Position numbers and translations under genes: made by a program. From the NCBI GenBank assembly GCA_028872955.1, contig JAGWNX010000008.1:1-64000 (forward strand): a stretch of 64,000 nucleotides of DNA, written 5' to 3'. Origin of the DNA: Acidobacteriota bacterium. GTDB lineage: Bacteria > Acidobacteriota > Terriglobia > Terriglobales > Acidobacteriaceae. Below, piece after piece: positions 1,394 to 59,226 of the stretch (its first letter is position 1; every line of letters starts with the position of its first letter). The notes beneath the pieces were generated by a model. The model was given only the letters and a program-made list of their open reading frames with translations. It had not been told where the DNA came from and made no database searches.

Positions 1394-1426
1394 CCCAAAC
1401 CCACTCGCACCAGCATAAGGATTCGC

Positions 1427-2194: not shown

Positions 2195-2217
2195 CCCGCA
2201 CCTAAGCAGGAGCACCA

Positions 2218-4440: not shown

Positions 4441-4449
4441 GGCGCGGCC

Positions 4450-5700: not shown

Positions 5701-5755
5701 GTCCGGCGAACTCCCCTGCTCTCCCTCTCAACCCCCCAAAGCAGCGCGTCGCACC

Positions 5756-11787: not shown

Positions 11788-11833
11788 CTCTTCTCTCCTC
11801 TTTCAAACCGTCGCGCCATGCTCACCCTCGGCC

Positions 11834-14641: not shown

Positions 14642-14663
14642 CCTCAATCTCCCTTCTGATGCA

Positions 14664-19814: not shown

Positions 19815-19889
19815 CCCTTTATGTCCGCCTGCCAAGCCGTTGGAAGTGTTTCGGGGTGCCGTTTCCCCTCTACCTTATGCCACATTTGC

Positions 19890-19923
19890 GCCGTCTGCCA
19901 CGCCCATCGACGTGGCAGACGGC
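19890..19923. terminator. 13-bp perfect hairpin between the receptor gene and the rest of the operon
   Basis: GCCGTCTGCCACG (19890-19902) is perfectly complementary to CGTGGCAGACGGC (19911-19923) with an 8-nt loop. It lies 67 bp after the receptor stop codon. There is no U tract, so it may act as a partial terminator or mRNA-stabilising hairpin that keeps receptor mRNA above that of the downstream metabolic genes. Confidence 0.6.
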
Positions 19924-19990
19924 AAGCCTTGGTTGGTCAGTAGAACATTTGGAGAGGCGCGGCTGCGAGCACTACGCAGCCGCACATGGG

Positions 19991-22900: not shown

Positions 22901-23362
22901 GGCTGCGTCGATCGTCGTGCCCACATCCGTGGTCTCCGTCTGCAGCAGCGGAGCTGCGGAGGTGACCTCAACCACCTGCGTGGCTGAGCCGACGGCCAGA
23001 TGCAGGTTAGACGAGTGCACCTGGTTGGCCTGGAGCTGGATCGAGTTCTCGACCGCAGCCTCAAAGCCCTTCGCCGTGACCCGCACCTCATAGCGACCCA
23101 CCGGCAGATGACCGACGCTGAAGTAGCCCGCCGCGTTCGTCTTCGTAGGCCACACCGTGCCGCGGTCCAGATCCTTCACCGCGACGTCTGCATTGACCAC
23201 CAGTGCGCCTGTTTGGTCAGTAATGATGCCGTTGATCGTCGCCGTCACATCCTGCGCGCTCGCCTGGCTAAGAAGAACACTCGCCATCGCCATCGCCATC
23301 AAGAAACATAGCGTCAGAGTGTAGGCGTGCTTCCGACAGTATCTTGCGAAAAATGACCTCAT
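19991..23362 (-). CDS. TonB-dependent receptor, Oar-like, with carboxypeptidase regulatory-like domain
   Basis: 1123-residue outer-membrane protein. Signal peptide at 1-36 (ending ASAQD), then a Cna_B/carboxypeptidase-regulatory-like domain at about 38-120 (INGIITDQTGALVVNADVAV), a plug region with a TonB-dependent fold, and a very long beta barrel ending in KYNF with the C-terminal aromatic insertion signal. This architecture is expanded in Acidobacteriota. It probably binds and imports the oligosaccharide processed by the genes downstream. The start at 23362 is supported by GGAGAGGG upstream and by the signal peptide. It is divergent from iclR and carries a well-formed promoter with an IclR-type palindrome in its leader. 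Confidence 0.92.
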   Translation of the reverse strand: MRSFFARYCRKHAYTLTLCFLMAMAMASVLLSQASAQDVTATINGIITDQTGALVVNADVAVKDLDRGTVWPTKTNAAGYFSVGHLPVGRYEVRVTAKGFEAAVENSIQLQANQVHSSNLHLAVGSATQVVEVTSAAPLLQTETTDVGTTIDAATNVTLPLASRNYLQLALTTPGAVSPQIAGFQSGQNAGQVARPEINGNRFTANSYLLDGMDNNDAGSNYVVYSPQPDAIEEFRVITQNAPADFGSYMGGIISATIKEGTNKYHGTVFEFFRNDKLNANEWMNKLNPANVVPRTKVRWNEYGGTIGGPILKDKLFFFADYEAERFDFPSTSSLISVFTAKERSGNVSELVAAGKNIIDPNTGQPFPNNQIPASELSKAAQSILSSSLYPTPANGNLQSNAYNTKATKTDVDQGDGRLDYALSEKDHLMGRFSYQKLNNPSLNSVPYLYNTAGVVTSWNFVTGYTRTLTSNLVNDARLGVNYLQDGQGHTSANFAGNASSLFNLPGLTTSFLPAMGFNGGYVSNFGTKANVTDNYDTSIQYSDALSWVHGKHNTRFGLQGWRVRTAGLFGGSNGQAGTFTFKSTYSGSPETDFLLGLPTQIGVGNPGGEWEQNNSIYAAFVQDDWKLSPKLTVNLGLRYENHTPFVESHNRQVNWDPQTGNFEQPGVNGNSNALYNSYNGIGNWQPRLGVAYQVLPKTTIRAAFGMSSFMEGTGLGLRLAQNPPRPISASANYSTLSYPTTTLDQGFTPIAIPAGCTISGLQSAAPICYKGAIIFSWDKKVQPAKAGQWSLFVQHEFSRSATFQIGYVGQATRHLTDAELLTQGVWVSPGVVKPSPFFANNQAVLNQVAFIFGTFAEAHQSYNSLQTQLEGRLNHGLSYNVNYSWSRCMTNSQGFFGEGSQSSGPGAWWQNTYNPNGETGACYYNVKGDFTGYVIYELPFGRGKQFGKDMNRVADAVVGGWKVSAIPTFRGGFPLTLSSNDDHSGTNSFQNRPNCVAPPRVLHKQPIGNGFFGYRWFDPSSYTEPTAGTFGNCSVSSVYGPGEQKIDASVAKTFSITDSQNVEFRAEFVNAFNHTILDAPNNGGLTVTDPTTGAINPSTSTIGQVNTSEGARQIQLALKYNF

Positions 23363-23429
23363 GTTCCCTCTCCTTGTCTTCCTTTTCGATTGCGTTCCAG
23401 TAGGCCCCGAAAGCATTACGAACAATGCA

Positions 23430-23455
23430 GTTCCGAAATGCGAAATAAATGTTTG
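23430..23455. promoter_or_regulatory. IclR-type operator candidate, copy A (receptor promoter)
   Basis: Contains TTCCGaaatgCGAAA at 23431-23445, a one-mismatch inverted repeat with 5-bp spacer. The whole 26-bp element matches copy B (26247-26272, opposite strand) at 22 of 26 positions. It starts 11 bp after the receptor -10 box and ends 67 bp before the receptor ATG, so bound protein would sit on the early transcribed region. Confidence 0.7.
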
Positions 23456-23466
23456 TATTGTGGAGC

Positions 23467-23496
23467 AACGTAACTGAATCGCCATTGCGCTGTCAA
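23467..23496 (-). promoter_or_regulatory. Putative promoter of the TonB-receptor operon
   Basis: On the minus strand, TTGACA (23496-23491) is followed by 18 bp and TACGTT (23472-23467). The -35 box is a perfect match, the -10 poor, as expected for a regulated promoter. The same arrangement recurs at 26205-26234. Confidence 0.6.
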
Positions 23497-23521: not shown

Positions 23522-24316
23522 ATGAAGAAGACAAGCACAGCGATGAGCTCCACTCTTCGCTGTCTTAAGGTTCTGGAAATCCTCGCAGATGAGCCGTTCG
23601 AACTCTCGTTCAGCGAGCTTGTATCACGACTTGATGTTCCGAAGGCCTCCGCCCACCGCCTGTGCACCACGCTGATTGAGGCCAATCTCATCACGCAGGA
23701 GCCCTTTACCCGGCGCTACATGCTGAACAGCCACGCGTTGTGGATCGGTTCCGGCTACCTGCGTCACTCACCGCTGTATCGTGCCGCGTTCTTCCCCATG
23801 CAGGAGCTGGCGCTGCAGATACCCGGCACGGTGCAGCTGGGCGTGCTCGATCAGGACTACGTGCTGTTCATCCACTCCGTCGGCTACGCGGGTGCCCCGG
23901 ATGCGTTTGCCGACGTCGGCCTGCGTCGACCGATGAATGCAACGGCCTCCGGCAAGATCTTTCTTGCGGGCATGCAGCCGGACGAGGTCACACGCATCAT
24001 GGCCAAGAGCACGGAGCGCTACACTAGCAGCACCATCACCTCCGCCGAACGTATGCAGGGGGAGCTGGAGTTGGTGCGCAGGGCCCGCTATGCGCGCAAC
24101 GTGGAAGAGCTGCTGCCGCGCTATTGGGTGCTGGCCGCCGGAGTCTACGCTGGCGTGGAGGAGCTGCCTGCCGCGGCGATCAGCATCACGCTGCCACTTT
24201 CAGAGTTCTCTCCCGAGCGGGAGATGACCATCGCTGCACTGGTGAAAGAGGCTGCGCGCAAGACCTCACTGCAACTGGGACCGAACTCGGTGAGCCGCGC
24301 CGTGCTCCCCCGCTAG
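23522..24316 (+). CDS. IclR-family transcriptional regulator
   Basis: 264-residue cytoplasmic regulator. The N-terminal winged helix-turn-helix is at about residues 8-65 (LKVLEILADEPF...LVSRLDVPKASAHRLCTTL), followed by the IclR effector-binding domain at about 80-250 (RPMNATASGKIFLAGM is the typical ligand-pocket entry). The effector is unknown; IclR proteins sense small acids, sugars or aromatic compounds. It is transcribed divergently from the TonB receptor, with its start codon 26 bp from that promoter's -35 box. The repeated palindrome at 23.43 and 26.25 kb makes it the likely local regulator of both flanking operons. Confidence 0.88.
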   Translation: MKKTSTAMSSTLRCLKVLEILADEPFELSFSELVSRLDVPKASAHRLCTTLIEANLITQEPFTRRYMLNSHALWIGSGYLRHSPLYRAAFFPMQELALQIPGTVQLGVLDQDYVLFIHSVGYAGAPDAFADVGLRRPMNATASGKIFLAGMQPDEVTRIMAKSTERYTSSTITSAERMQGELELVRRARYARNVEELLPRYWVLAAGVYAGVEELPAAAISITLPLSEFSPEREMTIAALVKEAARKTSLQLGPNSVSRAVLPR

Positions 24317-24388: not shown

Positions 24389-26191
24389 ATGCAGCTCAGC
24401 CTTTGCCACCTCGGCTACCTTCCGCATAGCCCCAAGACGCTCACGCTTCTCCCCGAAGGCGCCGAAACGCTTGCGGATCGCATTCCGTTTTACCTGCGTC
24501 AGAACTGCCTTCGGCTGGAACGTGAGCGGCCCGCGACCCCGGGTTTCTCCGCGCGCTTCCCTTCGCCGTACAACCTGCTTGCCGGGCAATTGACCGCATC
24601 GGCTGCGGCCGCCGCCTTCTACACCGGGGTGCTGCAGCGCCGCGAAACGAGGTGGGGAACACTCTGGCAGGCAGACTTCTCCGACTTCACCACGCCGGGC
24701 AGCTACCAGATCGAGACCGATCTGCAGATCACCCCGCCCTTCGCGATTCGCGAGCGCGTCTACGACCGTCTGCTCGCGGGCTACCTGACCTTCCTGCACG
24801 CACAACGTTGCGGTTGCGAGATCTTTGGCGTGCATGCGGCCTGCCACACCGATGACGGGGTGCTGGATCGCGATGGCTCCGCGTGGCCGGTGACCGGCGG
24901 CTGGCACGATGCCGGCGACTTTCGCAAATGGCTCGCCTTCACCCAGCACCACCTGGACGCGCTGGCCACCATGCTGGAGCAGTGCGCGCCTGCGCTGGAG
25001 CGTGGCGGCGTGCCCACGAGTCAGCTTACCGACGAGATCGCATGGGGCAATCGCTTCTTCCACGGCATGGTCTCCGCCGAGGGACAGGTCTTTGAAGATG
25101 TCGCTGGTGGTCGCGCACCCGCGAACGCCGCGTTGACCTACGAGCAGCACTGGTGGTTTGAGAATCATCCCGGCTGCTTTGGCGACGCCTCCGACAATCG
25201 TTGGACGGACAACGTGGCTGGCTCTGGCGATGAGCGCATGGTGCGCACCACCTACAACCCCTGGGTGCAATGGAGCTTCGTCGCCACCCAGCTGCGCGTA
25301 GCGCGACTGCTGCCAGCCGCGTCGGCAGCTGCGTGCCTAGAGCGCGCGCAACGGGCCGCATCGTATGCGCACGCGCATCCGCATGATGGGCGCTCACTCT
25401 TTCTGGCCGCCGAGCTGCGCGGCCGGCTGGAGCAACTCGTCGCCGGGCAGGCGCCCAACCAGGCACGTCTTTGCGCGGTCGCGCAGGCCTTGCTCGATCG
25501 CCAGGCCACCCAAGGCGAAGGCCTGTATGGCTACTTTCTGGAGGCGGACGCCGCCGACGCGTATCGCTCCATCGCCTTCTCTGCTGAACCCGCGCTGGCG
25601 CTGGTGCGGCTGTGTGAGCTTGAGCCTCTGCTCGAAGACCGTTCGCTCGCAGCCAGGGCCAGGACGGCGATCGAGCTCTACGTGGAGGCGTACCTGCTCG
25701 CTGACGCTGCCAGCAATCCCTTTGCGCTAACGCCGTACGGAGTCTACCTGCAGCCGGCGCACGCGGATCGCCAACACTTTCGCAACGCCGGAGGCGGGCG
25801 CGGTGTGCGCACCTTCATGCATCCGTACAACGAGCAGGGCATCGTCCACGGCACCAGCTCCGTGCTGCTGAGCCACGCGCATCTGCTGGCACGGACGGGT
25901 GTGTTATTCCACCAGCGCAGCTGGCGCAATGCGGCCGAGCGTCTGTTGCAGTGGTGTCTCGGCCACAATACGCTGAACCGCTCACTGTTCTCCGGCATCG
26001 GCTACAGGCAGCCGACGGGCTACTCGTTCCGGATTCCGCAGCTGCCCGAGGCACCGGTCACCGGCTTCATCGGGACGCCGGAGGACACGCCCTATCTGGA
26101 GACCACGACCGCCATCGAGTGGAACACGCTGGAGTACTGGAGCATCCCCTTCCTCCAGGCCGTGCAGGCCGCCTGCTGGCTGCACGGGTAA
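24389..26191 (+). CDS. Glycoside hydrolase family 9 enzyme, cytoplasmic
   Basis: 600-residue GH9 with an N-terminal Ig-like (CelD_N) domain (about 1-110, LGYLPHSPKTLTL...SYQIETDLQI) and an (alpha/alpha)6 catalytic domain. The Asp pair is in GGWHDAGDF (D174, D177) and the candidate acid is E577 in AIEWNTLEYW. No signal peptide is visible, unlike cellulases of this family; cytoplasmic GH9 members include exo-beta-glucosaminidases of chitin-oligosaccharide pathways. Together with NagA/NagB/NagK this favours an amino-sugar oligosaccharide over cellulose, as inference. It follows iclR by 72 bp and precedes the second regulated promoter. Confidence 0.8.
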   Translation: MQLSLCHLGYLPHSPKTLTLLPEGAETLADRIPFYLRQNCLRLERERPATPGFSARFPSPYNLLAGQLTASAAAAAFYTGVLQRRETRWGTLWQADFSDFTTPGSYQIETDLQITPPFAIRERVYDRLLAGYLTFLHAQRCGCEIFGVHAACHTDDGVLDRDGSAWPVTGGWHDAGDFRKWLAFTQHHLDALATMLEQCAPALERGGVPTSQLTDEIAWGNRFFHGMVSAEGQVFEDVAGGRAPANAALTYEQHWWFENHPGCFGDASDNRWTDNVAGSGDERMVRTTYNPWVQWSFVATQLRVARLLPAASAAACLERAQRAASYAHAHPHDGRSLFLAAELRGRLEQLVAGQAPNQARLCAVAQALLDRQATQGEGLYGYFLEADAADAYRSIAFSAEPALALVRLCELEPLLEDRSLAARARTAIELYVEAYLLADAASNPFALTPYGVYLQPAHADRQHFRNAGGGRGVRTFMHPYNEQGIVHGTSSVLLSHAHLLARTGVLFHQRSWRNAAERLLQWCLGHNTLNRSLFSGIGYRQPTGYSFRIPQLPEAPVTGFIGTPEDTPYLETTTAIEWNTLEYWSIPFLQAVQAACWLHG

Positions 26192-26204: not shown

Positions 26205-26234
26205 TTGACAGAGTGGATTCGGGAACTCTATGCT
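26205..26234 (+). promoter_or_regulatory. Putative promoter of the epimerase-to-permease operon
   Basis: TTGACA (26205-26210), 18 bp, TATGCT (26229-26234). The -35 is perfect and the spacer equals that of the receptor promoter. It lies just after the GH9 stop, so the downstream genes can be transcribed independently. Confidence 0.65.
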
Positions 26235-26246
26235 CTATCCGAATCT

Positions 26247-26272
26247 CAAACATTGTTTTCGCATTCCGAAAC
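26247..26272. promoter_or_regulatory. IclR-type operator candidate, copy B
   Basis: Contains the perfect inverted repeat TTTCGcattcCGAAA at 26257-26271. The 26-bp element matches copy A at 22 of 26 positions in the same orientation relative to the regulated genes, begins 12 bp after the -10 box and ends 68 bp before the ATG at 26341. A less convincing inverted repeat (GATTCGG/CCGAATC, 26216-26245) overlaps the promoter. Confidence 0.72.
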
Positions 26273-26340: not shown

Positions 26341-27366
26341 ATGCCAACGATTACGACCGACGAGCAGCTTGAACAAGCCCTGATTACACCCTCCGCCGCA
26401 GACGTAGAGTTCGCGGCACGGCTCCAGGGCGACACCGTCGTGCTGGGCGCCGGCGGCAAGATGGGGCCTACCCTGGCCAAGCGCCTGCGGCTGGCGCTGC
26501 AGAAGGCTGGAGTCAGCAGGCGGGTGCTGGCCGTCTCGCGGTTTGAGTCCTCCACCGCGCGGCAGGAGTTAGACGCGGCGGGCGTCGAGACCATTGCCGC
26601 AGACCTGCTCGACCCGGCTGTCGTTCGCTCTCTGCCGCAGGTCGAGAATGTACTGTACCTCGCTGGCCGCAAGTTCGGCTCTGCGGCAGACCCCGAGCTG
26701 ACCTGGGCGATGAATGCGCTGGTGCCGGCCTGGGTGGCGGACCACTATCGCAGCGCGCGCATCGTTGCCTTCTCCACCGGCAACGTCTACCCCTTCGTCT
26801 CGCCGGCGCAGGGTGGTTCGCTGGAGTCCGATCAGCCCGCACCGCGCGGCGAGTATGCACAGTCCTGCCTGGCGCGCGAGCGCATCTTTCAGTACTACTC
26901 CAAGCGTCACGGCACACCCTGCCTCATCTACCGCCTGAACTACGCCATCGATCTGCGCTATGGCGTGCTGGTGGACATCGCGAGTCAGGTACTCGCAGGC
27001 CAGCCTGTTGACGTCTCGGTGCCGGCCGTCAACGTGCTCTGGCAAGGCGACGCCAACTCCTACGCGATGCGCTCGCTCGAGCTATGCGAGTCGCCGGCGC
27101 GCATCCTCAACGTCACCGGACCGGAGACAGTCTCCGTGCAACGTGCGGCTGCGTTCTTTGCGGAACGCTTCGGCTACGAACTGAAACTCAAAGGCGAACC
27201 TGGCCCGCTTGCGCTGCTCAACGATGCAAGCGCCTGCCATGCCGCGCTCGGTTATCCCTCCATGTCAGCCTCCACGCTGATGGAGGCCGTAGCCGTGTGG
27301 GTGCAGAGCGGCGGCACACTGCTGAATAAAGCAACGAAATTTCAAGTCACGGACGGGAAGTTCTAA
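26341..27366 (+). CDS. Extended SDR (NAD-dependent epimerase/dehydratase-like), atypical active site
   Basis: 341-residue Rossmann-fold protein. The dinucleotide motif VLGAGGKMG is at about residues 36-44 and FSTGNVYPF lies where epimerases carry the catalytic Ser/Thr. The expected YxxxK reads YAQSC, so the catalytic lysine is replaced by Cys. It may therefore be a non-redox binding protein or use different chemistry. It is the first gene of a five-or-more-gene operon and overlaps the DapA-like gene by one base (TAATG). The start has a poor ribosome-binding site but is fixed by the operator-to-start spacing shared with the receptor gene. Confidence 0.75.
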   Translation: MPTITTDEQLEQALITPSAADVEFAARLQGDTVVLGAGGKMGPTLAKRLRLALQKAGVSRRVLAVSRFESSTARQELDAAGVETIAADLLDPAVVRSLPQVENVLYLAGRKFGSAADPELTWAMNALVPAWVADHYRSARIVAFSTGNVYPFVSPAQGGSLESDQPAPRGEYAQSCLARERIFQYYSKRHGTPCLIYRLNYAIDLRYGVLVDIASQVLAGQPVDVSVPAVNVLWQGDANSYAMRSLELCESPARILNVTGPETVSVQRAAAFFAERFGYELKLKGEPGPLALLNDASACHAALGYPSMSASTLMEAVAVWVQSGGTLLNKATKFQVTDGKF

Positions 27367-28418
27367 TGCCTGGCACAATGGTGGGCTTTCGCAATCTACT
27401 GCAGCAAGGGCTCGTCATCCCGGCCCATCCGCTGGCGCTGACTGAAGACCGCAAGATGGATGAGCGTCGTCAACGCGCGCTTACCCGCTACTACTGCGAG
27501 GCCGGCAGTGGTGGTGTGGCCGTCGGCGTTCACACGACGCAGTTCAACATCCGCGATGCAAACGTTGGCCTCTTTGAGCCGGTGCTGGAGCTGGCACTGG
27601 AAGAGGTGCACGCGTTTGAGGCGCGTTCAGGCAAGACGCTGGCCAAGATCGGCGGCGTCTGCGGCGATACGCGCCAGGCCGTTCGCGAAGCGGAGACGTT
27701 GCACAGGCTGGGCTACGATGGCGGGCTACTCAGCCTGGCTGCGCTCAACAACGCCACGAATGACGAGCTGATCGCGCACTGCCGGACGGTCGGCGAATCG
27801 ATCCCGCTCATCGGCTTCTATCTGCAGCCTGCCGTGGGCGGTCGCCCGCTCAACGCGGAGTTCTGGGAGCGCTTTGTCGAGATCGAATCCGTGGTCGCCA
27901 TCAAAGTAGCCTCCTTTGACCGATACCAGACCATGGAGGTTCTGCGCGCGGTGGCGCACAGCGATCGCGGCGCGGAGATCGCCCTCTACACCGGGAACGA
28001 CGACAACATTGTCGCTGACCTGCTTACTGAGTTCCGCTTCGGCGACCGCACTGCGCACTTCGTTGGCGGCCTGCTGGGCCAGTGGGCGGTGTGGACGTCG
28101 CGCGCGGTGGAGCTGTTGCACTCCGTGCAGGACGCCAAACGCAACTGCGCTCGACTGGATACCGTGCTCGCTCGAGGCGCTGAGATCACCGACGCGAATG
28201 CGGCCATCTTTGACGCTCGCCATGAGTTCCACGGCTGCATCTCCGGCATCCATGAGGTGTTGCGACGGCAGGGACTGCTGGCGGGCCGCTGGTGTCTCGA
28301 TCCGCATGAGAGCCTCTCTCCGGGACAGCTGCAGGAGATAGAACGCGTCTACGCCGCTTATCCTGAGTTGAACGACGACGCCTTCGTAGCCGAGAATCTC
28401 GATCGCTGGCTGTCGTAA
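27366..28418 (+). CDS. DapA/NAL-superfamily aldolase-like protein
   Basis: 350-residue class I aldolase-type TIM barrel, longer than DapA (about 290). The Schiff-base lysine is K180 in VVAIKVASFD, with the fold partner Tyr in GFYLQP. The usual GTTGE segment for the keto-acid carboxylate is changed to GVHTTQF, so it should not be called DapA or NanA. It probably cleaves or dehydrates a keto acid from the glycan being degraded. Coupled to the preceding epimerase gene and followed by a nitrilase-type gene. Confidence 0.75.
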   Translation: MPGTMVGFRNLLQQGLVIPAHPLALTEDRKMDERRQRALTRYYCEAGSGGVAVGVHTTQFNIRDANVGLFEPVLELALEEVHAFEARSGKTLAKIGGVCGDTRQAVREAETLHRLGYDGGLLSLAALNNATNDELIAHCRTVGESIPLIGFYLQPAVGGRPLNAEFWERFVEIESVVAIKVASFDRYQTMEVLRAVAHSDRGAEIALYTGNDDNIVADLLTEFRFGDRTAHFVGGLLGQWAVWTSRAVELLHSVQDAKRNCARLDTVLARGAEITDANAAIFDARHEFHGCISGIHEVLRRQGLLAGRWCLDPHESLSPGQLQEIERVYAAYPELNDDAFVAENLDRWLS

Positions 28419-28448
28419 ACGGACCAACCAACAGGAGGACGCCACGCC

Positions 28449-29375
28449 GTGCAGGAGAAGACCATTGCCGCAGTCGCACTCCGCGATGGCACCTATGATT
28501 CCGCTGAGCAGACGCTGGCGGAGGCACAGCGGCTGGTTGAGCAGGCGGGCTCACAGGGAGCGGATCTCGTCGTCCTGCCGGAGACAATCAACCTTCTGCA
28601 TCGCCGCGACCCGGCCACACCACTCGAAGCAGCAGCCTGGGAGAATTGGCAGCAGCCCACGGAGGCTCTGCGAGCGGCGGCGGTCCGCGCAAACGTCGCG
28701 CTGGTGCTGCCGTTACTGGTGCGCGATGCGCAAGGACTAGCCAACCGCTTCTACCTGCTGCATCGCGATGGCTCCCTCGCGGGTAGCTATCAGAAGCGCA
28801 TCCCATCCACGGGCGAGGTTGCATGCGGCGTAGTGCCGGGCGCACCAGCCCCGTTGCAGTGGGAGGGTCTGAAGCTGGGCGGCGGCATCTGCGTCGATCT
28901 CTACTATCCGCAGGCTGTCTTTGATCCGCAGGCGGCCGTGGGTGTCGATGCGTTTCTTTTGCCGAGCATGACGCCCGGCGGCTCCCTGCTGCAGGCGTAT
29001 GCCGTCGCCTACGGCGTGCCGTTCGTGCTCGCCTACTCCCCCTGGAGCCGCATCCTTGACCGCGATGGGCGCGAGTTGGCCGCCGGCGGCTATCGCAGTG
29101 AGACGCTACGGGCGGGCTACGGCTCGCCAATCGTGCAGGCGACGATCAACTTCGATGCCATCACGCTCTTCGCTGACTTCAATCAGGAGAAGCTCGCCGC
29201 CGTGCAACGTCACTATGGCCGCGATGTGCGCATTCGCTTCGACCAGCCCAACTGCATCTTCTACCTTGAGTCCCGCTCCGAGCAGATCACCGTCGCTGAG
29301 ATCATGCGCGAGTTTGGGCTCGTTTCGCGGCGCGATTACTTTGCCCAGCTTGGCCCCTTGCCACTGCGGCCCTGA
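28449..29375 (+). CDS. Carbon-nitrogen hydrolase (nitrilase superfamily)
   Basis: 308-residue cytoplasmic amidohydrolase with the complete nitrilase-superfamily triad: E45 in LPETIN, K116 in YQKRIP and C148 in GGICVDLYYP. It would hydrolyse a C-N bond in an amide, nitrile or N-carbamoyl compound; the substrate cannot be told. Its place between an aldolase-like and an oxidoreductase gene suggests deamidation of a pathway intermediate. The GTG start is supported by GGAGG about 10 bp upstream. Confidence 0.82.
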   Translation: MQEKTIAAVALRDGTYDSAEQTLAEAQRLVEQAGSQGADLVVLPETINLLHRRDPATPLEAAAWENWQQPTEALRAAAVRANVALVLPLLVRDAQGLANRFYLLHRDGSLAGSYQKRIPSTGEVACGVVPGAPAPLQWEGLKLGGGICVDLYYPQAVFDPQAAVGVDAFLLPSMTPGGSLLQAYAVAYGVPFVLAYSPWSRILDRDGRELAAGGYRSETLRAGYGSPIVQATINFDAITLFADFNQEKLAAVQRHYGRDVRIRFDQPNCIFYLESRSEQITVAEIMREFGLVSRRDYFAQLGPLPLRP

Positions 29376-29389
29376 CGACAGGAGACTCT

Positions 29390-30580
29390 ATGCCTCTGCC
29401 CACGCACAGCACGCCGCTTCGCTTTGCCGTCATCGGCTGCGGGGCCGTGGCTCGCGCACAGCACATTCCTAACATCGCCGCCTCCTCGCGCATGGAGCTG
29501 CACACCTGCGTTGATCTGGACGACGCAGTGCTGGCCGAGTGTCGTGATCGCTACGCGGCGCTGCACGTCACACACGATTGGCACGCTGCCGTCGCTGATC
29601 CGGAGGTAGACGCGATCTGCCTGGCGACGACCGAGCGACTACGATTGCCGGTTATCCAGGCTGCAGCCGAAGCAGGCAAGGCTGTCTACGTGGAGAAGCC
29701 GCTCGCCACAACGCTCACAGAGATGTACAGCATCCGCGAGGTGGTACGCACCTCTGGGATCGCCTTCTGCGTCGGGCACAACCGTCGCGCCAGCCCGGCG
29801 ATGCTGGCCGCGCATGCCATCTTTCGCGAGCACATGGAGCGTCCGCAACATGCAGCGTGGCGATGGCAGCGTGAGGCAACCCTGCCACCACTGCCAGACG
29901 ACGGCGTGCCCTCCATCGCCGTGCGCATCAACGACGATTGGCACAGCTGGAAGGGATGGGTCTTCGATAAGACGCAGGCACCGCACGGCCCCATGCTGTT
30001 TGAGATGACGCACTTCACCGACGTCTGCAACTGGTTTCTGGAGGACGAGCCAGAGGAGGTGACGGCCGTTGCGAGCGGTATGTTGAATGAGGCTGTCATC
30101 GTTCGTTATCGCTCTGGCGCGCTTGCAACCATTCTGCTGGCCAACAACGGCACCTTCGCGTATTGCAAGGAGCTGTACGAGATGATGGGCAACGGTGGCT
30201 ACCTCGCAATCGATCACATGCTGGAGGTGCGTACCGCCGGCATCGGAGGTGCACCGGACCGCATCGTCTTCCCCATGATCGACGACAAGCATCCGCAGAT
30301 CGGCGCGGAGGGCGGCGTGACCGGCTGGCTGGCAAAGAAGCGCGCTGCCTGCGCCGAGGCCGCGCTGGCGCAGGATCCACTGCTGCAGTTCACCGCAGAG
30401 CCGGACAAAGGTCACGCACACGCGTTGGAGCGCTTCGTCGATCAGATCCTCGGTGGACCAGAGGTCTGCGGAGTGGACGCCGCGGTGCTCGCCACGGAGG
30501 TTGCCTTTGCCGCCATCCACTCCGCGGAACAGCGGCGGCCCGTCACGCTGGCTGAGATACGCGCGGGAGGCCAGCGTTGA
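29390..30580 (+). CDS. Gfo/Idh/MocA-family oxidoreductase
   Basis: 396-residue NAD(P)-binding oxidoreductase. GCGAVARAQH follows a beta strand at about residues 18-27, the EKP motif (VEKPLATT) is near 102, and the C-terminal substrate domain contains HGPMLFEMTHFTDVCNWF. Second member of the family in the locus; it shares only family-level motifs with that at 16.0 kb. Likely acts on a sugar or sugar amide of the pathway. AGGAGA precedes the ATG, and the stop overlaps the GH92 start (TGATG). Confidence 0.82.
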   Translation: MPLPTHSTPLRFAVIGCGAVARAQHIPNIAASSRMELHTCVDLDDAVLAECRDRYAALHVTHDWHAAVADPEVDAICLATTERLRLPVIQAAAEAGKAVYVEKPLATTLTEMYSIREVVRTSGIAFCVGHNRRASPAMLAAHAIFREHMERPQHAAWRWQREATLPPLPDDGVPSIAVRINDDWHSWKGWVFDKTQAPHGPMLFEMTHFTDVCNWFLEDEPEEVTAVASGMLNEAVIVRYRSGALATILLANNGTFAYCKELYEMMGNGGYLAIDHMLEVRTAGIGGAPDRIVFPMIDDKHPQIGAEGGVTGWLAKKRAACAEAALAQDPLLQFTAEPDKGHAHALERFVDQILGGPEVCGVDAAVLATEVAFAAIHSAEQRRPVTLAEIRAGGQR

Positions 30581-32874
30581 TGCGCCGTGCCATCGTCGCT
30601 CTGCTGCTTGTGCTGCCACTTCAGGCGCAGTCCGCACATCCGGCAGGGCCCTTCGCGCACACGCTTGCTGGCCCTGTCGCCAGTGTTGATCCGATGATCG
30701 GTGTGGGCGGCGATCCCGACGACGGCATCAACCTCTTCCCTGGCGCGGCCGCGCCCTTCGGCATGGTGCAGCTCAGCCCGGAGACGGAGGACAAGGGCCT
30801 GGGCTACCACTCCATTCAGAAGTGGCTGAAGGGCTTCAGCATGACCCACATGAGTGGCCCCGGCTGCGCGAACGAAGGCGAGGTCTTCTTCACCGCGACG
30901 ACCGGGCCCGTCGTGACGCAGGCAAACGACTACCAGACTCCCTACGCGCACACCCAGGAGACAGCCGAAGCGGGCTACTACGCGGTACAGCTGCTGCAGT
31001 GGAAGATACTTGCCGAGCTAACTGCAACACCACACACGGGCGTTGCGCGCTTTCGCTTTCCGGCTGGCACACCGGGCAATATCCTCGTCCCCATCAGCCA
31101 CACGCTCAACCAGACCGAGAGCGCCCAGATTCGCATCGTAGGCAGCGACCGCATCGAAGGCTTCGTCGAAGACCACGCATTCTGCAATAAGCCGGGCACG
31201 TACAAGGTCTACTTCGTCATGACCTTCGACCAGCCATTCACGACCCATGGTACGTGGACAGGCGACGAGTACGGCGGCCACGGCACACTCGCGCCCGGGG
31301 CCCGCACTGCCGCGCAGAGCACACATGATCACACCACAGGCGCATGGGTGATGTGGCCGGCGCAGAACGAAGCACACTCAGTCACCGCGCGCATCGGCAT
31401 CTCCTATGTGGACATCGCCGGCGCAGAGAATAACCTGCGTGCGGAGGCCGCAGGACATGACTTCGACTCGGTTCGCCGAGAGACGCAGCAACAATGGAAC
31501 AAGGAACTCGGCAAGATCGAGATCACCGGCGGCACTTCGAGACAGCGTCGCATCTTCTACACGGCGCTGTACCATAGCCAGCTGGCGCCTAGCCTCTTCA
31601 GTGATGCCGATGGGCGCTACCTGGGCTTTGACCAGCGCGTGCACACCATCGCCGATGGCCACCAAGTGTACACAAACATCTCCGGCTGGGACGTCTATCG
31701 CACGCAGTTTCCGCTGCTGGCGATGATCCAGCCGGCGCGCGCGCAGGACATCGCGCAGTCGATTGTGCTGATGTATGAGCAAGGCGGCTGGATCGACCGA
31801 TGGCCGCAGATCAACCTCTACACCAACGATATGATCGGCAGTCCGCTGACCATCATGCTCTCCACCGCGTGGCTCGATGGCCTGCATGGCTTTGACATGG
31901 ACACGGCATGGGAGGGCATGCTGAAAGACGCCACGCAGGCACCCCCCGCCGGCAAGCCCTACCTCGGTGAAGAAGGCATCGAGTGGATCAATCAACTCCA
32001 CTACCTGCCCTCGGACAAGGTGACGTACGGCTCGGTCGCAAAGACGCTGGAGTACTGCCTGGCCTATGCCGCACTGTCGCGTCTTGCCACGGACCTGCAT
32101 AAGGGTCCGGAGGCCGGCACCCTGGCGGCGCGCTCCCTGTCCTATCGCAACGTGTTTGATCCGGAGACCGGCTTCTTCCGTCCACGCCGGTCCGATGGCA
32201 GCTGGGAACCAGCGTTCAATCCTGCACAGGATGGTCACGGCTTCGTCGAAGGCACGGGCTGGCACTACATGTCGTTTGCACCCGCAGACATGTCCTGGCT
32301 GGTCGCGTCCATGGGACAGGCCCGCTTCAACCAGCGCATGGATGCGTTCTTCGACTACCCTGTGCCCGGCTGGTATGCGCAGTTCTACAATCCGCTCAAC
32401 GAGACAGACTTTCAGGCACCGTATGCCTTTCACTTCGCCGGGCGTCCATGGCGATCACAGCAGGTGGTGCGGCGTATACTGCGCGAGAACTATCTCGACA
32501 CACCGGACGGCATTCCCGGCAATGATGATCTCGGAGCGACCTCTGCGTGGGCCGTGCTCAGCATGATGGGCTTGTATAGCGTCGATCCGACGAGCCTCGC
32601 GTATGAACTGGTCGCGCCCTCGTTCCCGCGCATAGTGGTGCATCTTGATGCGCCTTACCCTGCAAAGACCTTCACCCTCACGACGACAGGCAGCACAGCC
32701 TCAACGCCTTACATCCACAGCGTCCGCATCAACGGCCGCATCCACACGCAGAACTGGCTCGGGTTTGACGACATCCGCCGGGGCAGCACCGTTGCCTTCA
32801 CACTACGCGATACGCCGGACGAAAGCTGGGGCACACACCCTGAAGATGCGCCTCCGTCCATCAGCCGACACTAA
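30580..32874 (+). CDS. Secreted GH92-family glycosidase (alpha-mannosidase-like)
   Basis: 764-residue protein with a Sec signal peptide (VALLLVLPLQAQSA). The GH92 N-terminal beta domain begins with VDPMIGVGGDPDDGINLFPGA, followed by the catalytic (alpha/alpha)6 domain with SGWDVYRTQFPLL and the conserved GNDDLG (D649, D650), where the calcium-dependent general base lies. GH92 enzymes are exo-acting alpha-mannosidases that often attack N-glycans or mannose-1-phosphate linkages. The ATG at 30580 overlaps the previous stop; a TTG one codon upstream is the only alternative. Confidence 0.88.
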   Translation: MRRAIVALLLVLPLQAQSAHPAGPFAHTLAGPVASVDPMIGVGGDPDDGINLFPGAAAPFGMVQLSPETEDKGLGYHSIQKWLKGFSMTHMSGPGCANEGEVFFTATTGPVVTQANDYQTPYAHTQETAEAGYYAVQLLQWKILAELTATPHTGVARFRFPAGTPGNILVPISHTLNQTESAQIRIVGSDRIEGFVEDHAFCNKPGTYKVYFVMTFDQPFTTHGTWTGDEYGGHGTLAPGARTAAQSTHDHTTGAWVMWPAQNEAHSVTARIGISYVDIAGAENNLRAEAAGHDFDSVRRETQQQWNKELGKIEITGGTSRQRRIFYTALYHSQLAPSLFSDADGRYLGFDQRVHTIADGHQVYTNISGWDVYRTQFPLLAMIQPARAQDIAQSIVLMYEQGGWIDRWPQINLYTNDMIGSPLTIMLSTAWLDGLHGFDMDTAWEGMLKDATQAPPAGKPYLGEEGIEWINQLHYLPSDKVTYGSVAKTLEYCLAYAALSRLATDLHKGPEAGTLAARSLSYRNVFDPETGFFRPRRSDGSWEPAFNPAQDGHGFVEGTGWHYMSFAPADMSWLVASMGQARFNQRMDAFFDYPVPGWYAQFYNPLNETDFQAPYAFHFAGRPWRSQQVVRRILRENYLDTPDGIPGNDDLGATSAWAVLSMMGLYSVDPTSLAYELVAPSFPRIVVHLDAPYPAKTFTLTTTGSTASTPYIHSVRINGRIHTQNWLGFDDIRRGSTVAFTLRDTPDESWGTHPEDAPPSISRH

Positions 32875-32904
32875 CCCCGCGCGCGGGAGAAAGGCCACAC
32901 ACCC

Positions 32905-35664
32905 TTGCTACGTCGCACCTTCATGAAGCTTGCCAGCCTGAGCACCACGCATCGCGCCATGCAGCGTGTGCTGCCACTCGCAGAGGCGGCGACGACCGCC
33001 ACCGGCAGCACAACCACCTTCGGCTCCGGCGTCTTCGGCCGCTGGCAGACCGATGCCTTCGGCCTCAACGCGTATGCGTACACCTGCGACCAGACTCGCG
33101 ACCCACGCGCCGTGCAGGCAGTCAACCAGGCATGGCGCTCCAACACCGACCACATCCATCAGTTCGGGAACGATCGCGTCGTCGCCGTGGCGTCGAACTA
33201 TGGCTACGTGCAGCTGCGACAGGATGAAGGCAGTCCGAAGTTTCTCAACGACTACTTCCCCGCCGCCAATCAGTTCGGAGGTGGGCTCGGATATCTGGTG
33301 CACGAAGGAAGCGTCACCGGCACGCACTTTCCCGCGGCCGGTGCCGCCTCCTTCGAGCGCACCTTCGGCACGGGCTACTTTCGCAAGCAACTGCGCTCGG
33401 GCAGCTTTGAGGTCGATCAATCCATCCTGGCGCCCTTCGGAGACGATCCCGTTCTCCTCTCGCAGGTCACGATCACCAACCACAGCGCACAGCGGCAACA
33501 TGCGCGCTGGATTGAGGTCTGGGGTGCGCAGCCGTACCAGTTCTCCTATCGCTCGCTGATGGAGGGCTCCGTCACCAGCAACGCGGATGCAACACCGCAG
33601 CTGCGTCGCGACCTCAGCCGGCGGTTCGAGCCGCTCAGTCAACAGCTGCCCGGTCAGGCGGGCCTGCGTCTACGCTACAAATTTCTGGGCCGCTCGCCAG
33701 AGGAAGAGGCGCTCTGGCAGAAGCTGCAGGAGTCGCTGGCGCGCGATCCGCACGGCTACTTCGGGGGCCCAGTGCCTCCGCTCGCTGCGGGTGCGAGCAT
33801 GGACGATCTCGCCCCCCCGGAGACATTCCTCGCCTCGTTGGATGGTCCCATTTCCGGCTTTTCGACAGACGCAGCCAGCTTCTTCGGGGGCAATCCGCAG
33901 GTCCCCGCGGGCGCGCGGGTGCCACTGGAAGATACGCTTGATTCCAAGGGCACTCCGGCCCTGCTGCTTGAACGTGCCCTTGAGCTTGCACCGCATGAGA
34001 GCCGCACACTCACGTTCCTCTACGGCTATCTTCCCGAGGGCTTCACACTGGAGTCACTCGTCGCGAAGTACAAGCAGAGACAGGCATCCGCGCTCGCAGA
34101 CTCCAGCGCGAAGTGGCGCGCCAATACGATTCGCTTTCGCGTAGACAGCGCACCCTGGGTGGAGCGCGAGATCGCGTGGAATGCCGGATACGTTCGCAGC
34201 GGCTTCACCTATGACAGCTTCTTCCGCGAGCACATCCTGTCGCAGGGTGCGGGCTACCAGTACCTCGCAGGCCTGCAAGGTGCAGCGCGCGATCCGCTGC
34301 AGCATGCACTGCCACTCATCTTCACGGACCCGGCACTCGTGCGCGGCATCCTGCGCTACACCTTGCGAGAGATTCAGCTCGATGGCTCTCTTCCCTATGG
34401 CATCGTCGGTGCAGGGGTGCCCATGCCGTGCCGATACCGCCCAAGCGATCTCCAGCTCTGGGTGCTGTGGCTCGCAACCGAGTACACCCTTGCGACGCGA
34501 GACATCGCCTTCCTCGACGAGCACCTGGCCACGTATCCACCCAACGCGCAGCCAGCCGACACACACACGATTCGCGAGCTGCTGGCACGGTGCTTCCAGC
34601 ACATCACAGAGACCATTGGCACAGGCCAGCACGGTCTGCAGCGGATGTTGAACGGCGACTGGAACGACAGCATCGTCGTCAACCGGCTGACTCCCGAGCA
34701 GGTCGCGGAGACCGTCGCACATGGGGAAAGCGTCCTCAACGCGGCAATGGCTGCGTGGGTCTTTGACGACTATGCGCGCCTGCTCGACACGCTGGGGGAT
34801 GCCGCACTTGCCGCGAAGGCTCGCAGCAAGGCAGAGGCTCAGCGCACAGCCGTGCGTGCGCAGTGGAACGGTCGCTGGTTCCGCCGCGCGTGGATGGGTG
34901 ACAAACTTGGTTGGTGCGGCGAAGAGCAGCTATGGCTGGAACCACAGCCGTGGGCGCTGCTCGGGGGCTGTGCCACTGGTGAGCAAACGTCGACGCTACT
35001 CCACAGCATCAACACGATGGCGCGCAAGCCATCGCCGATTGGCGCAATGCTGCAGAGCCCACCCGACCCGACGATGAAAGACGCGCCCGGCACCGGCACC
35101 AACGGTGGCATCTTCGCGGCGATTAACGCAACTCTCATCTGGGCACTCGCAGAGCAAGACGACGAGCTTGCGTGGGACGAGTGGAAGAAGAACACCTTTG
35201 CCGTGCACGCGGACCTGTATCCCGAGATGTGGTTCGGCATCTGGAGCGGCCCGGATGCTTACGACTCCATCTTCGCGAAACACCCGGGGGCAACGGCACC
35301 AGACTTCCCTGTGCTCAACATGCACTCGCACGCCTGGCCTGTCTACACCGCAACCAAACTGCTCGGGCTGGACTTCAATCAGCATGGCCTTCGTCTGCGC
35401 CCCGTCCTGCCAGAGCGCAGCTACGAGTTCAGCTCCCCCCTCTTCGGGCTGCGCAAGTCAGCACCGGGCCGCTACTCCGGCTGGTACGCACCCAGCCAGG
35501 CAGGCCGCTGGACCATCACGCTGGAGCTGCCCCCCACGGAGCTTGCCACAGGAAAGCGCCTGCGCGTGAATGGCGCGATGGTATCGCCTGCACTCTCCGG
35601 CCAGGTGCTGAGCTTCTCCGGCGAAAGCCAGCAGAATCAGCCACTGCGCTGGGAGCTCGTTTGA
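32905..35664 (+). CDS. GH94/GH36-like glycosyl hydrolase or phosphorylase with Tat-like N-terminus
   Basis: 919 residues. A beta-sandwich N-terminal domain (about 45-310) precedes an (alpha/alpha)6 domain typical of GH94-like proteins, with GDWNDS (D585-D588; the last Asp aligns with the catalytic acid of cellobiose phosphorylase) and the late PGTGTNGGIFAAIN. The N-terminus has an RRTFMK twin-arginine-like motif but only a weak hydrophobic stretch, so export is uncertain. The TTG at 32905 is favoured by GGAGAAAGG about 10 bp before it; ATG 32923 would remove the RR motif. The substrate is unknown. It follows the GH92 gene by 30 bp. Confidence 0.7.
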   Translation: MLRRTFMKLASLSTTHRAMQRVLPLAEAATTATGSTTTFGSGVFGRWQTDAFGLNAYAYTCDQTRDPRAVQAVNQAWRSNTDHIHQFGNDRVVAVASNYGYVQLRQDEGSPKFLNDYFPAANQFGGGLGYLVHEGSVTGTHFPAAGAASFERTFGTGYFRKQLRSGSFEVDQSILAPFGDDPVLLSQVTITNHSAQRQHARWIEVWGAQPYQFSYRSLMEGSVTSNADATPQLRRDLSRRFEPLSQQLPGQAGLRLRYKFLGRSPEEEALWQKLQESLARDPHGYFGGPVPPLAAGASMDDLAPPETFLASLDGPISGFSTDAASFFGGNPQVPAGARVPLEDTLDSKGTPALLLERALELAPHESRTLTFLYGYLPEGFTLESLVAKYKQRQASALADSSAKWRANTIRFRVDSAPWVEREIAWNAGYVRSGFTYDSFFREHILSQGAGYQYLAGLQGAARDPLQHALPLIFTDPALVRGILRYTLREIQLDGSLPYGIVGAGVPMPCRYRPSDLQLWVLWLATEYTLATRDIAFLDEHLATYPPNAQPADTHTIRELLARCFQHITETIGTGQHGLQRMLNGDWNDSIVVNRLTPEQVAETVAHGESVLNAAMAAWVFDDYARLLDTLGDAALAAKARSKAEAQRTAVRAQWNGRWFRRAWMGDKLGWCGEEQLWLEPQPWALLGGCATGEQTSTLLHSINTMARKPSPIGAMLQSPPDPTMKDAPGTGTNGGIFAAINATLIWALAEQDDELAWDEWKKNTFAVHADLYPEMWFGIWSGPDAYDSIFAKHPGATAPDFPVLNMHSHAWPVYTATKLLGLDFNQHGLRLRPVLPERSYEFSSPLFGLRKSAPGRYSGWYAPSQAGRWTITLELPPTELATGKRLRVNGAMVSPALSGQVLSFSGESQQNQPLRWELV

Positions 35665-35691
35665 TCCATTAGATCCGTAAGGGAGATGTGC

Positions 35692-37017
35692 ATGGACCAT
35701 CCTCACGAGCTACGCCGCAGCCTGCGCCTGCGCGATCTCATTCTGTACGGCATCGTGCTCATTCAACCCACAGCGCCGATGCCCGTGTTCGGCGTGCTTT
35801 ATGAGAAGTCGCACGGCCACGTCACGCTGACAATCCTGCTGGCACTGGTGGCCATGCTCTTCACCGCCATCAGCTATGGACGTATGGCGAGGGCTTATCC
35901 GCAAGGCGGCTCAGCCTTTCTTTATGTCGGCAGGGAGTTGCATCCCAGTCTCGGGTATCTGACCGGCTGGGGCCTATTGATGGACTACGTCATCAATCCG
36001 CTGATCTGCACCATCTGGTGCAGCAGTGCAGCAATGAACTTTTTTCCGCACGTGCCATACATCGCCTGGGTTGCAGGCTTCGTTACGCTGTTCACGCTGC
36101 TCAACTGCAACGGCATTGAGACCTCCGCACGCATCAATGCTGCGGTTGCCGCCGCGCTTGGACTGATCATCGTCTGGATACTGACTGCGGCGATTCACTT
36201 TATCCTGGCGCGCTTTCATCCGGCCAGCATCTTCCTTGCACCTCTGCTTGCCACCGGCGGCCCAGACCGCACCGCGATCATGCGTGGCACTGCCACGGCC
36301 GTGCTCGCGTACATCGGCTTCGATGGCATCTCCACCCTCGCGGACGAGTCACACAATCCGCATCACGACATCCCGCGCGCAATCGTAATGACCTGTCTCG
36401 CTACCGGCATTCTTGGTGCGATCGAGGTCTACTTTGCAGAGCTCGCCTGGCCGCATGGCGCACGCTTTCCCGATGTCAACACAGCGTATGTCTTCGTAGC
36501 CGGTCACGTGGGTGGGCCAACGCTGTTCGCTGTCGTCAATCTCGCGTTGCTGCTCGCCACCGTGGGCTCCGGCATGGCCTCACAGCTGGGCGCGGCGCGG
36601 CTGCTGTATGCGATGGGACGCGACGGCGCTCTGCCACCCGGCTTCTTCGCTCAGGTGGATCGACGTCATCGCATTCCGCGCAACAATGTCATCCTCATCG
36701 GCGTGATCTGCTTCCTTGGGGCGCTTCTGCTCAGCTTCTCGCTCGGTGCCGACCTGCTGAACTTCGGGGCGCTGCTGGCGTTCATCGGCGTCAATCTGTC
36801 CTCCGCTGTGCGCGCATGGCGAGAGCCTGCCGCGAGCACCGCTCGGCGCCTCGCACCACTCTTCACCTCGACCATCGGGTTTCTCACCTGCAGCTTTCTC
36901 TGGTGGAATCTCGACTCCAAGGCAAAGATCGTCGGCTCAGCTTGGGCCCTGCTGGGCCTGCTGCTCTACGCAGTCCGCCGCGTCCGCACATCTGCCCCGC
37001 GCGACTCTGCCTCGTAG
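35692..37017 (+). CDS. APC-superfamily amino acid permease
   Basis: 441-residue inner-membrane transporter with about 12 hydrophobic segments; the APC signature in TM1 is degenerate (LILYGIVLIQPTAPMPVFG) and YGRMARAYPQGGSAFLYVG follows TM2. It imports amino acids or related amines. As the last gene of the operon it could export or import an amine released by the nitrilase-type enzyme. ATG 35692 (AAGGGAG, 6 bp spacing) is chosen over 35686, where the ribosome-binding site would be too close. Confidence 0.82.
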   Translation: MDHPHELRRSLRLRDLILYGIVLIQPTAPMPVFGVLYEKSHGHVTLTILLALVAMLFTAISYGRMARAYPQGGSAFLYVGRELHPSLGYLTGWGLLMDYVINPLICTIWCSSAAMNFFPHVPYIAWVAGFVTLFTLLNCNGIETSARINAAVAAALGLIIVWILTAAIHFILARFHPASIFLAPLLATGGPDRTAIMRGTATAVLAYIGFDGISTLADESHNPHHDIPRAIVMTCLATGILGAIEVYFAELAWPHGARFPDVNTAYVFVAGHVGGPTLFAVVNLALLLATVGSGMASQLGAARLLYAMGRDGALPPGFFAQVDRRHRIPRNNVILIGVICFLGALLLSFSLGADLLNFGALLAFIGVNLSSAVRAWREPAASTARRLAPLFTSTIGFLTCSFLWWNLDSKAKIVGSAWALLGLLLYAVRRVRTSAPRDSAS

Positions 37018-37551: not shown

Positions 37552-37670
37552 AAAGGAGAATGGCACTATGTCTTCAGTGAGATACAGACGCCGTTTCTGC
37601 CCTGAGCGAGGTCTACTGAATGTCAGCTCCCTTCAAAGCCGTGGACCCGATGCTCCCAAAAGGGGTAGGA

Positions 37671-37695
37671 TGGAATAGGATTCAGTCCTATTCCA
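37671..37695. promoter_or_regulatory. parDE operator palindrome
   Basis: TGGAATAGGA (37671-37680) and TCCTATTCCA (37686-37695) form a perfect 10-bp inverted repeat with a TTCAG spacer, ending 14 bp before the parD ATG. Such sites mediate autorepression by the antitoxin or the toxin-antitoxin complex. Confidence 0.7.
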
Positions 37696-37709
37696 GACCG
37701 GAGGTTTCC

Positions 37710-37991
37710 ATGCGCTCGACCCAACAACTGAGCATTACGCTGCCCAATGAGATGGCCGATCTTATTCGTGCGAAGGTAGCCACAGGCGAATACGCGACGG
37801 AAAGCGAAGTCATCCGTGACGGTCTGCGGACCCTTCTCGCCCGCGACCGTGCCGTCGAAGACTGGTTACGGGAAAAAGTAGCACCCGCATATGACGCGCT
37901 CAAGGCAGACCCCTCTCGCGCCTTGTCTGCCGCGCACGTCCGCTCTGCTCTTTCCAACGCACATAAGAAGGCGCTTGCCAAGAAGGGGTAA
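37710..37991 (+). CDS. parD: ParD-family antitoxin (ribbon-helix-helix)
   Basis: 93-residue antitoxin. N-terminal ribbon-helix-helix DNA-binding region (STQQLSITLPNEMADLIRAKVATGEYATESEVIRDGLRTL is the full fold, residues 3-43), then an acidic/Ala-rich C-terminal tail that would wrap the toxin. ATG 37710 is chosen because GGAGG lies just upstream and it starts exactly at the RHH domain. The stop overlaps the parE start (TAATG). It likely represses its own promoter through the palindrome at 37671-37695 and stabilises the element. Confidence 0.88.
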   Translation: MRSTQQLSITLPNEMADLIRAKVATGEYATESEVIRDGLRTLLARDRAVEDWLREKVAPAYDALKADPSRALSAAHVRSALSNAHKKALAKKG

Positions 37992-38299
37992 TGTCCTACA
38001 CTGTCGTCTTCACGCCCGAGGCCGAAGCGCAGCTCACTGAGCTGTACGGGTACATTGCTGCGGAAGCATCCCCTGAGATCGCTGCACGTTTTACCGACGG
38101 CATTGTGACGTACTGCGAGAGCCTGAGTACCTTCCCTGCCCGTGGAAACCGGCGCGATGACATTCGCCCTGGCCTCCGCGTGACCAGCTATCGAAAGCGC
38201 GTCGCCATCGCATTCCATGTGGAGGAGGACCGGGTCAATATCATCGGAGTCTTCTATGGCGGCCAGGACTATGAAGCGACCTTGCTCGAAGAGGAATGA
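37991..38299 (+). CDS. parE: ParE/RelE-superfamily toxin
   Basis: 102-residue toxin of the ParE branch: YTVVFTPEAEAQLTELYGYIA at the N-terminus, PARGNRRDDIRPGLRV in the middle, and the C-terminal strand pair with IIGVFYGGQDYE. ParE proteins poison DNA gyrase when the antitoxin is lost. Coupled to parD by a one-base overlap. A good terminator follows 18 bp after the stop. Confidence 0.88.
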   Translation: MSYTVVFTPEAEAQLTELYGYIAAEASPEIAARFTDGIVTYCESLSTFPARGNRRDDIRPGLRVTSYRKRVAIAFHVEEDRVNIIGVFYGGQDYEATLLEEE

Positions 38300-59225: not shown

Positions 59226-59226
59226 C

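Follow-up and report, generated by a model that had tools for sequence, protein, structure and literature searches.

Background

Aldolases of the NanA/DHDPS superfamily combine a TIM-barrel fold with a Schiff-base lysine and a tyrosine, and in N-acetylneuraminate lyases (NAL) and dihydrodipicolinate synthases (DHDPS) two hydroxyl residues of a GTTGE loop bind the carboxylate of pyruvate. Members of this superfamily may be encoded together with short-chain dehydrogenases/reductases (SDRs), as in the uronate dehydrogenase/keto-deoxyglucarate dehydratase cluster of A. tumefaciens, in which an SDR and a DapA-family enzyme are often joined by an enolase-like partner. Here we describe a gene cluster of a soil-dwelling Acidobacteriota bacterium (family Acidobacteriaceae; GenBank assembly GCA_028872955.1), located in the first 64,000 nucleotides of contig JAGWNX010000008.1 (the window), in which an SDR of the epimerase family (Epi) and a DapA-like lyase form a fixed pair. 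The lyase shares the fold, the Schiff-base Lys and the Tyr of NanA and DHDPS, from which it is separated by its low identity (~20%), a C-terminal extension, a His in place of Ser/Thr and the lack of a nanA or dapA equivalog score. Epi, in turn, has the fold and the NAD(P)-binding motif of extended SDRs such as GalE and TerB and keeps their Ser and Tyr, but it never carries the Lys of the YxxxK motif and has invariant motifs of its own (Lys40, KFG, RYG and WQ). Both catalytic motifs differ from those of the A. tumefaciens cluster.

Two other well-known systems resemble the locus as a whole. The functions of an N-acetylglucosamine (GlcNAc) catabolic operon (MFS transporter, ROK kinase, NagA and NagB) are all present in its divergent arm, although here they are tied to the Epi-DapA arm by an operator-like motif and accompanied by additional Gfo/Idh/MocA, SIS-domain and 903-amino-acid proteins. 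Polysaccharide utilisation loci likewise bring together a TonB-dependent-type barrel, a regulator, several glycoside hydrolase (GH) families and sugar catabolism, but no SusD partner was found among the genes scanned here and the regulator is of the IclR type. The reading that we favour, to which we give about an even chance on the evidence of the sequence, is that positions 10723-37017 form an IclR-controlled two-armed cluster for the uptake and breakdown of an amino-sugar-containing glycan, in which the pair would modify and cleave a nitrogen-bearing sugar derivative.

The seven-gene operon

A sequence-only reading of the window had proposed a catabolic operon of seven consecutive, tightly spaced genes, and this proposal is well supported: all seven open reading frames were confirmed on the plus strand (26341-37017), and Pfam and NCBIfam assign them to the same families.

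26341-27366, plus strand: Epi, extended SDR (epimerase family); GxGGKxG, Ser145 and Tyr172 invariant, Cys at the Lys position of YxxxK; Pfam Epimerase (PF01370), 47.6 bits (curated cut-off 20.9)
27366-28418, plus strand: DapA-like lyase of the NAL/DHDPS superfamily, retaining Lys180 and Tyr152 but reading VHTTQF where GTTGE is expected; Pfam DHDPS (PF00701), 34.9 bits (curated cut-off 22.1)
28449-29375, plus strand: carbon-nitrogen hydrolase (nitrilase superfamily); Glu45-Lys116-Cys148 intact; Pfam CN_hydrolase, 66.3 bits
29390-30580, plus strand: Gfo/Idh/MocA dehydrogenase; Pfam GFO_IDH_MocA, 62.0 bits; a 66% identical copy adjoins Epi-DapA in the planctomycete locus L064
30577-32874, plus strand: GH92 (alpha-mannosidase family); Pfam, 491 bits; Sec-type signal peptide by eye
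32905-35664, plus strand: GH94-superfamily protein; GH94 catalytic domain (PF17167), 100 bits, GDWND motif; N-terminus Tat-type by eye
35686-37017, plus strand: APC-family permease; Pfam AA_permease, 124 bits

No two neighbouring genes are more than 30 bp apart. Epi and the DapA-like gene overlap by 1 bp and Gfo and GH92 by 4 bp, while the remaining gaps measure 30 bp (DapA-like to nitrilase), 14 bp (nitrilase to Gfo), 30 bp (GH92 to GH94) and 21 bp (GH94 to permease). All signal peptides were judged by eye only; the Tat-type look of its N-terminus would make a periplasmic location of the GH94-superfamily protein likely, GH94 phosphorylases being cytosolic, phosphate-dependent enzymes. The permease is found in only one other relative (L131).

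Active sites of Epi and the DapA-like lyase

The sequence-only reading had reported the loss of YxxxK from the epimerase and of GTTGE from the aldolase. Comparison of 98 loci corrects the first statement: the Lys of YxxxK is missing, its position being occupied mostly by Cys (65 of 98), Ala (18), Val (7) or Thr (4), with no Lys among the common residues, but the Tyr is retained in all 98 proteins, and Ser145 and Tyr172 are kept. A near-invariant Arg67, following the second strand, suggests that the cofactor of Epi is NADP. The second statement holds for the whole family, in which G[ST]TGE is absent and the loop reads VH[TS]TQF, while Schiff-base Lys180 (98/98), His56 (98/98) and Tyr152 (96/98) are preserved and the C-terminal extension is conserved. 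Since the changes in both enzymes are family-wide, motif decay and sequencing error can be ruled out.

A deep sister pair from the phylum Bacteroidota (L177:8635-10727; about 38% identity, reversed gene order) carries an intermediate form of the loop, AHTGE (AHTGEF), together with a Glu at the position of the catalytic Tyr. This form supports the alignment register, and therefore the conclusion that, of the two carboxylate-binding hydroxyl residues, it is the first that has given way to His. The AlphaFold models are confident (pLDDT 94.8 for the DapA-like protein and 95.4 for Epi), and the closest folds are NanA and TerB/GalE-type SDRs, respectively.

These results bear on the possibility of a divergent sialate-type pathway, in which the DapA-like protein would be a nonulosonate lyase releasing pyruvate and N-acetylhexosamine, Epi would act as a hexosamine epimerase, the ROK kinase, NagA and NagB would complete the route, and Gfo would handle an anhydro form. 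The nearest solved sequences and folds of the lyase are indeed N-acetylneuraminate lyases, and ROK, NagA, NagB and MFS genes sit in the co-organised arm described below. We nevertheless regard this pathway as improbable, given the invariant His at the pyruvate-carboxylate Ser/Thr (in the register backed by L177), a nanA score of 20.9 bits against a cut-off of 382, the lack of any NanE-type epimerase match among the genes scanned in 10723-37017, and the absence of ROK and NagA from most loci containing the pair. More generally, neither Epi nor the DapA-like protein reaches an NCBIfam equivalog cut-off that names a substrate; for KdgD the score is 19.6 bits, far below the cut-off of 374. Plain naming of the operon as a sialate or 2-keto-3-deoxygluconate (KDG) pathway, against which the motif changes had already been held to argue, is rejected on these equivalog scores.

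Conservation and distribution of the pair

The DapA-like protein is part of a distinct family, whose members (about 48-87% identity) occur in at least 12 phyla: Acidobacteriota, Planctomycetota, Verrucomicrobiota, Bacteroidota, Chloroflexota, Bacillota, Pseudomonadota, Hydrogenedentota, Armatimonadota, Gemmatimonadota, Spirochaetota and Kiritimatiellota. Plasmid-borne relatives are present in Actinomycetota, Alphaproteobacteria and Paenibacillus, and canonical DapA paralogues reach only about 20-30 bits. Epi lies directly upstream of the DapA-like gene, on the same strand, in 94 of the 98 non-redundant loci, with a median gap of 12 bp. The distance matrices of the two proteins are correlated (r = 0.58 for 98 pairs, with a permutation maximum of 0.19). 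After merging loci whose DapA-like proteins are more than 88% identical, Epi is present in 102 of 124 locus groups. Of 250 genomes from the family to which the window belongs, 27 have the DapA-like gene, 27 have Epi, 25 have both and 29 have either; in three of the four genomes with just one partner, the mismatch is a contig-edge fragment. On this sequence record, Epi and the DapA-like protein form an obligate two-enzyme module, with amidase and glycosidase partners that vary by lineage. The pair itself extends over at least 12 phyla. The neighbourhood analysis proposed earlier for the DapA-like and nitrilase genes did not bear out these two as a conserved unit, a nitrilase being found beside the pair in only about 11 of the 124 groups.

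The distribution of the module is patchy. It was found in 30 of 294 planctomycete genomes, in 5 of 296 genomes of Bacteroidota (the phylum of L048), in 2 of 249 of Bacillota (that of L072) and in 12 of 398 of Pseudomonadota (that of L088). Genes of the relatives were called with a simple in-house codon-bias caller, and some of the contigs are short fragments of metagenome-assembled genomes (MAGs); locus L037, for example, lies in a MAG labelled Rhodanobacteraceae, yet its genes resemble those of the window about as closely as the acidobacterial ones do. The cluster is also carried by a cultured species, Edaphobacter lichenicola (L035 and L036). No description of the Epi-DapA pair was found in the open-access literature, although an earlier one may exist outside it. 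The module, present in roughly 10% of the sampled planctomycete and window-family (27/250) genomes, carries no annotation beyond "dihydrodipicolinate synthase family" and "epimerase", which leaves a step in environmental sugar catabolism under a wrong name. The obligate pair provides a clean marker for locating similar operons, and the invariant substitutions in its two active sites open its reaction to direct testing.

Two other genes recur next to the pair. The first encodes a third partner of about 440-470 amino acids (L171:5858-7267, L006:2608-4023 and L111:8646-9962), spread over Acidobacteriota, Planctomycetota and Proteobacteria; one member, in L119, is annotated as "mandelate racemase", and the protein of L171 has no Pfam match. 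The second encodes an NRAMP-like transporter, adjoining the pair in seven groups (L054:11089-12321 and cluster mates), which may transport an organic compound instead of a metal.

The operator-like motif and the divergent arm

Upstream of the operon, the window contains a regulator gene and a co-organised set of genes on the opposite strand.

26205-26234, plus strand: promoter-like TTGACA-18-TATGCT ahead of Epi (promoter scan; conserved in relatives)
26257-26272, minus strand: operator-like motif GTTTCGGAATGCGAAA ahead of Epi (alignment of relatives)
24389-26191, plus strand: GH9-family protein (Pfam), without a signal peptide by eye
23522-24316, plus strand: IclR-family regulator (Pfam, NCBIfam)
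23430-23445, plus strand: operator-like motif GTTCCGAAATGCGAAA in the divergent gap between the outer-membrane barrel and IclR genes, the sole other copy in the genome
19991-23485, minus strand: TonB-dependent-type outer-membrane beta-barrel protein, start probably at 23299
17103-19814, minus strand: 903-amino-acid protein, conserved in Acidobacteriaceae and, beside Epi-DapA, in the planctomycete L064
16007-17260, minus strand: second Gfo/Idh/MocA dehydrogenase
14664-16085, minus strand: MFS transporter
13907-14647, minus strand: NagB-type protein, glucosamine-6-phosphate isomerase/deaminase family (PF01182, 79.8 bits against 27)
12759-13910, minus strand: NagA-type amidohydrolase (best NCBIfam match NagA)
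11834-12889, minus strand: ROK-family kinase
10723-11787, minus strand: two-SIS-domain protein

Taken by itself, the promoter scan ahead of Epi is no better than chance (1 site found, 2.7 expected). In the aligned Acidobacteriaceae relatives, however, the promoter (TTGACAG...TATnnT-like) is conserved and followed by the conserved operator-like motif, and the alignment reveals the shared motif GTTYCGRAATGCGAAA in both intergenic regions. A search of the entire genome (3.48 Mb) for the 16-bp motif, allowing two mismatches, returned just 23430 and 26257; as the motif was derived from these two sites, what is informative here is that it is absent from the rest of the genome and conserved in relatives. 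The single regulated promoter proposed earlier is thus supported, whereas the second operator copy and the divergent arm (10723-23485) had both been missed. By position, the site at 23430 would control the barrel gene and then the minus-strand genes of the divergent arm. From the location of its gene we infer that the local IclR protein binds the motif, and the two arms would then be co-regulated as one unit.

The two-armed layout is kept in two other genomes (L238 with L130, and L239 with L131), only one of which has a ROK-like match, and in the planctomycete L064 the genes for the 903-amino-acid protein, the MFS transporter, both Gfo proteins, Epi and the DapA-like lyase lie on one strand. 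NagA- and NagB-family genes stand together in the divergent arm, as in GlcNAc catabolism; a whole-genome profile search with PF01979, which was not exhaustive, did not list the NagA of the window. The 903-amino-acid protein, cytosolic-looking and 49% identical to the planctomycete copy beside Epi-DapA, has no match in Pfam (also at relaxed thresholds), NCBIfam or the PDB (sequence and profile), and may represent an undescribed glycan-active family. It appears lyase-like by eye only.

Carbon-nitrogen enzymes beside the pair

Depending on the lineage, the pair is adjoined by non-homologous enzymes acting on carbon-nitrogen (C-N) bonds, namely nitrilases, M20 deacylases, NagA, NagB, GNAT acetyltransferases and ceramidase-like proteins. 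A tree built from 121 DapA-like proteins requires at least 4 changes for nitrilase (10 rows), 11 for M20 (13 rows), 6 for NagB (7 rows) and 9 for GNAT (18 rows), which argues that such enzymes have been gained beside the pair repeatedly. The catalytic Glu-Lys-Cys triad is intact in 18 of 18 nitrilase sequences. The block of GH9, nitrilase, GH92 and GH94 occurs in Acidobacteriaceae-like loci only, and these four genes are local additions to the pair.

Any of four amidase families was detected within 9.5 kb of the pair in 31 of 124 groups, compared with 1 of 59 control regions drawn from other parts of a subset of these genomes (p about 2e-5); with the comparison restricted to matched genomes, the figures are 7/47 versus 1/59 (p 0.013). 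Because the probes had been picked after the loci were seen, which makes the p-value optimistic, a tally of unselected neighbours was added: among 140 operon neighbours there are 11 Gfo, 7 GNAT, 5 TIM-barrel, 4 M20 and 4 CN_hydrolase proteins, and none of these families is among the top 25 listed for 140 random control-region genes, a list that may omit families with two or fewer members.

The post hoc choice of probes is one of several points that weigh against an amino-sugar route. In 93 of the 124 groups no amidase probe matched within 9.5 kb, the surroundings of the pair are in many cases generic (ABC, TctABC and NitT-type transporters, enolase-like proteins, D-2-hydroxyacid dehydrogenase), NagA and NagB accompany the pair in few lineages, and the NagA of the window is below the equivalog cut-off (184 versus 226 bits). 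The pair could belong to a general sugar-acid route, its C-N neighbours being incidental and drawn from gene-rich catabolic islands, as the high diversity of the neighbourhoods, mostly lacking amidases, would lead one to expect. The repeated gain of nitrilase, M20, NagB and GNAT genes, and the near absence of C-N enzymes from random regions of the same genomes, make this explanation rather unlikely. A nitrogen-bearing sugar intermediate is plausible in view of the NagA and NagB genes of the divergent arm and of the amidases, deaminases and acetyltransferases recurring beside the pair across phyla; it may be a sugar acid, as the sequence-only reading suggested. It is even possible, although we put this forward only tentatively, that the pair represents a way of breaking down amino or amidated sugars that has not been described before, in which an SDR lacking the Lys and a class I lyase with His for the pyruvate-binding Ser/Thr form a two-gene module of at least 12 phyla served by interchangeable amidases.

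A proposed route for an amino-sugar-containing glycan

For the favoured amino-sugar reading we infer the substrate, the order of the steps and the cleavage reaction as follows. The divergent arm would deliver N-acetylhexosamine to central metabolism through MFS uptake, phosphorylation by the ROK kinase, deacetylation by NagA and deamination by NagB, while the Epi-DapA arm would process a further sugar residue that probably carries nitrogen. Here the Gfo/Idh/MocA enzymes might oxidise a hydroxyl group to a ketone and the nitrilase might remove an amide; Epi would then oxidise, reduce or epimerise the product with NAD(P). Finally, Lys180 of the DapA-like enzyme would form a Schiff base with the keto group, a C-C bond would be split, and the hexosamine half would enter the NagA/NagB route.

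The glycoside hydrolases in the window (GH9, GH92, GH94, GH3 and GH8) are also consistent with a route for uronates or an exopolysaccharide in which the pair performs no nitrogen chemistry: the 903-amino-acid protein would be a lyase, Epi would reduce an unsaturated uronate, the DapA-like enzyme would be a KDG-type aldolase, and GH9, GH92 and GH94 would trim the remaining glucan-mannan exopolysaccharide; L139, where the pair has FAH-family and galactonate-dehydratase-like genes in its vicinity, points in the same direction. We consider this route unlikely, as the KdgD score is so low, the 903-amino-acid protein fits no lyase model and the recurrent C-N enzymes are left without an explanation. 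The GH9 protein does not help in the choice of a glycan: its nearest solved relatives are endoglucanases with weak scores, which give no clue to its substrate. A link to exo-glucosaminidases or xanthanases was considered, but the closest solved relatives are these endoglucanases instead, and the open-access literature on GH9 glucosaminidases yielded no substrate.

Flanking regions

An Rfam scan of the window gave no matches. On the left, positions 185-10399 encode further sugar-related proteins (enolase-superfamily, SDR, GHL6/GH42-like, ROK repressor, GH8 and GH3). On the right, the region 37247-62412 contains a 3'-tRNA-like sequence (reverse strand), a ParD/ParE pair (37620-38299), VirB4-, VirB6-, VirB11- and VirD4-like genes, a TrwC relaxase (53072-55861) and a CusCBA-type RND efflux set (56395-62412). 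This flank is an apparent integrated conjugative element, beginning about 230 bp past the permease gene.

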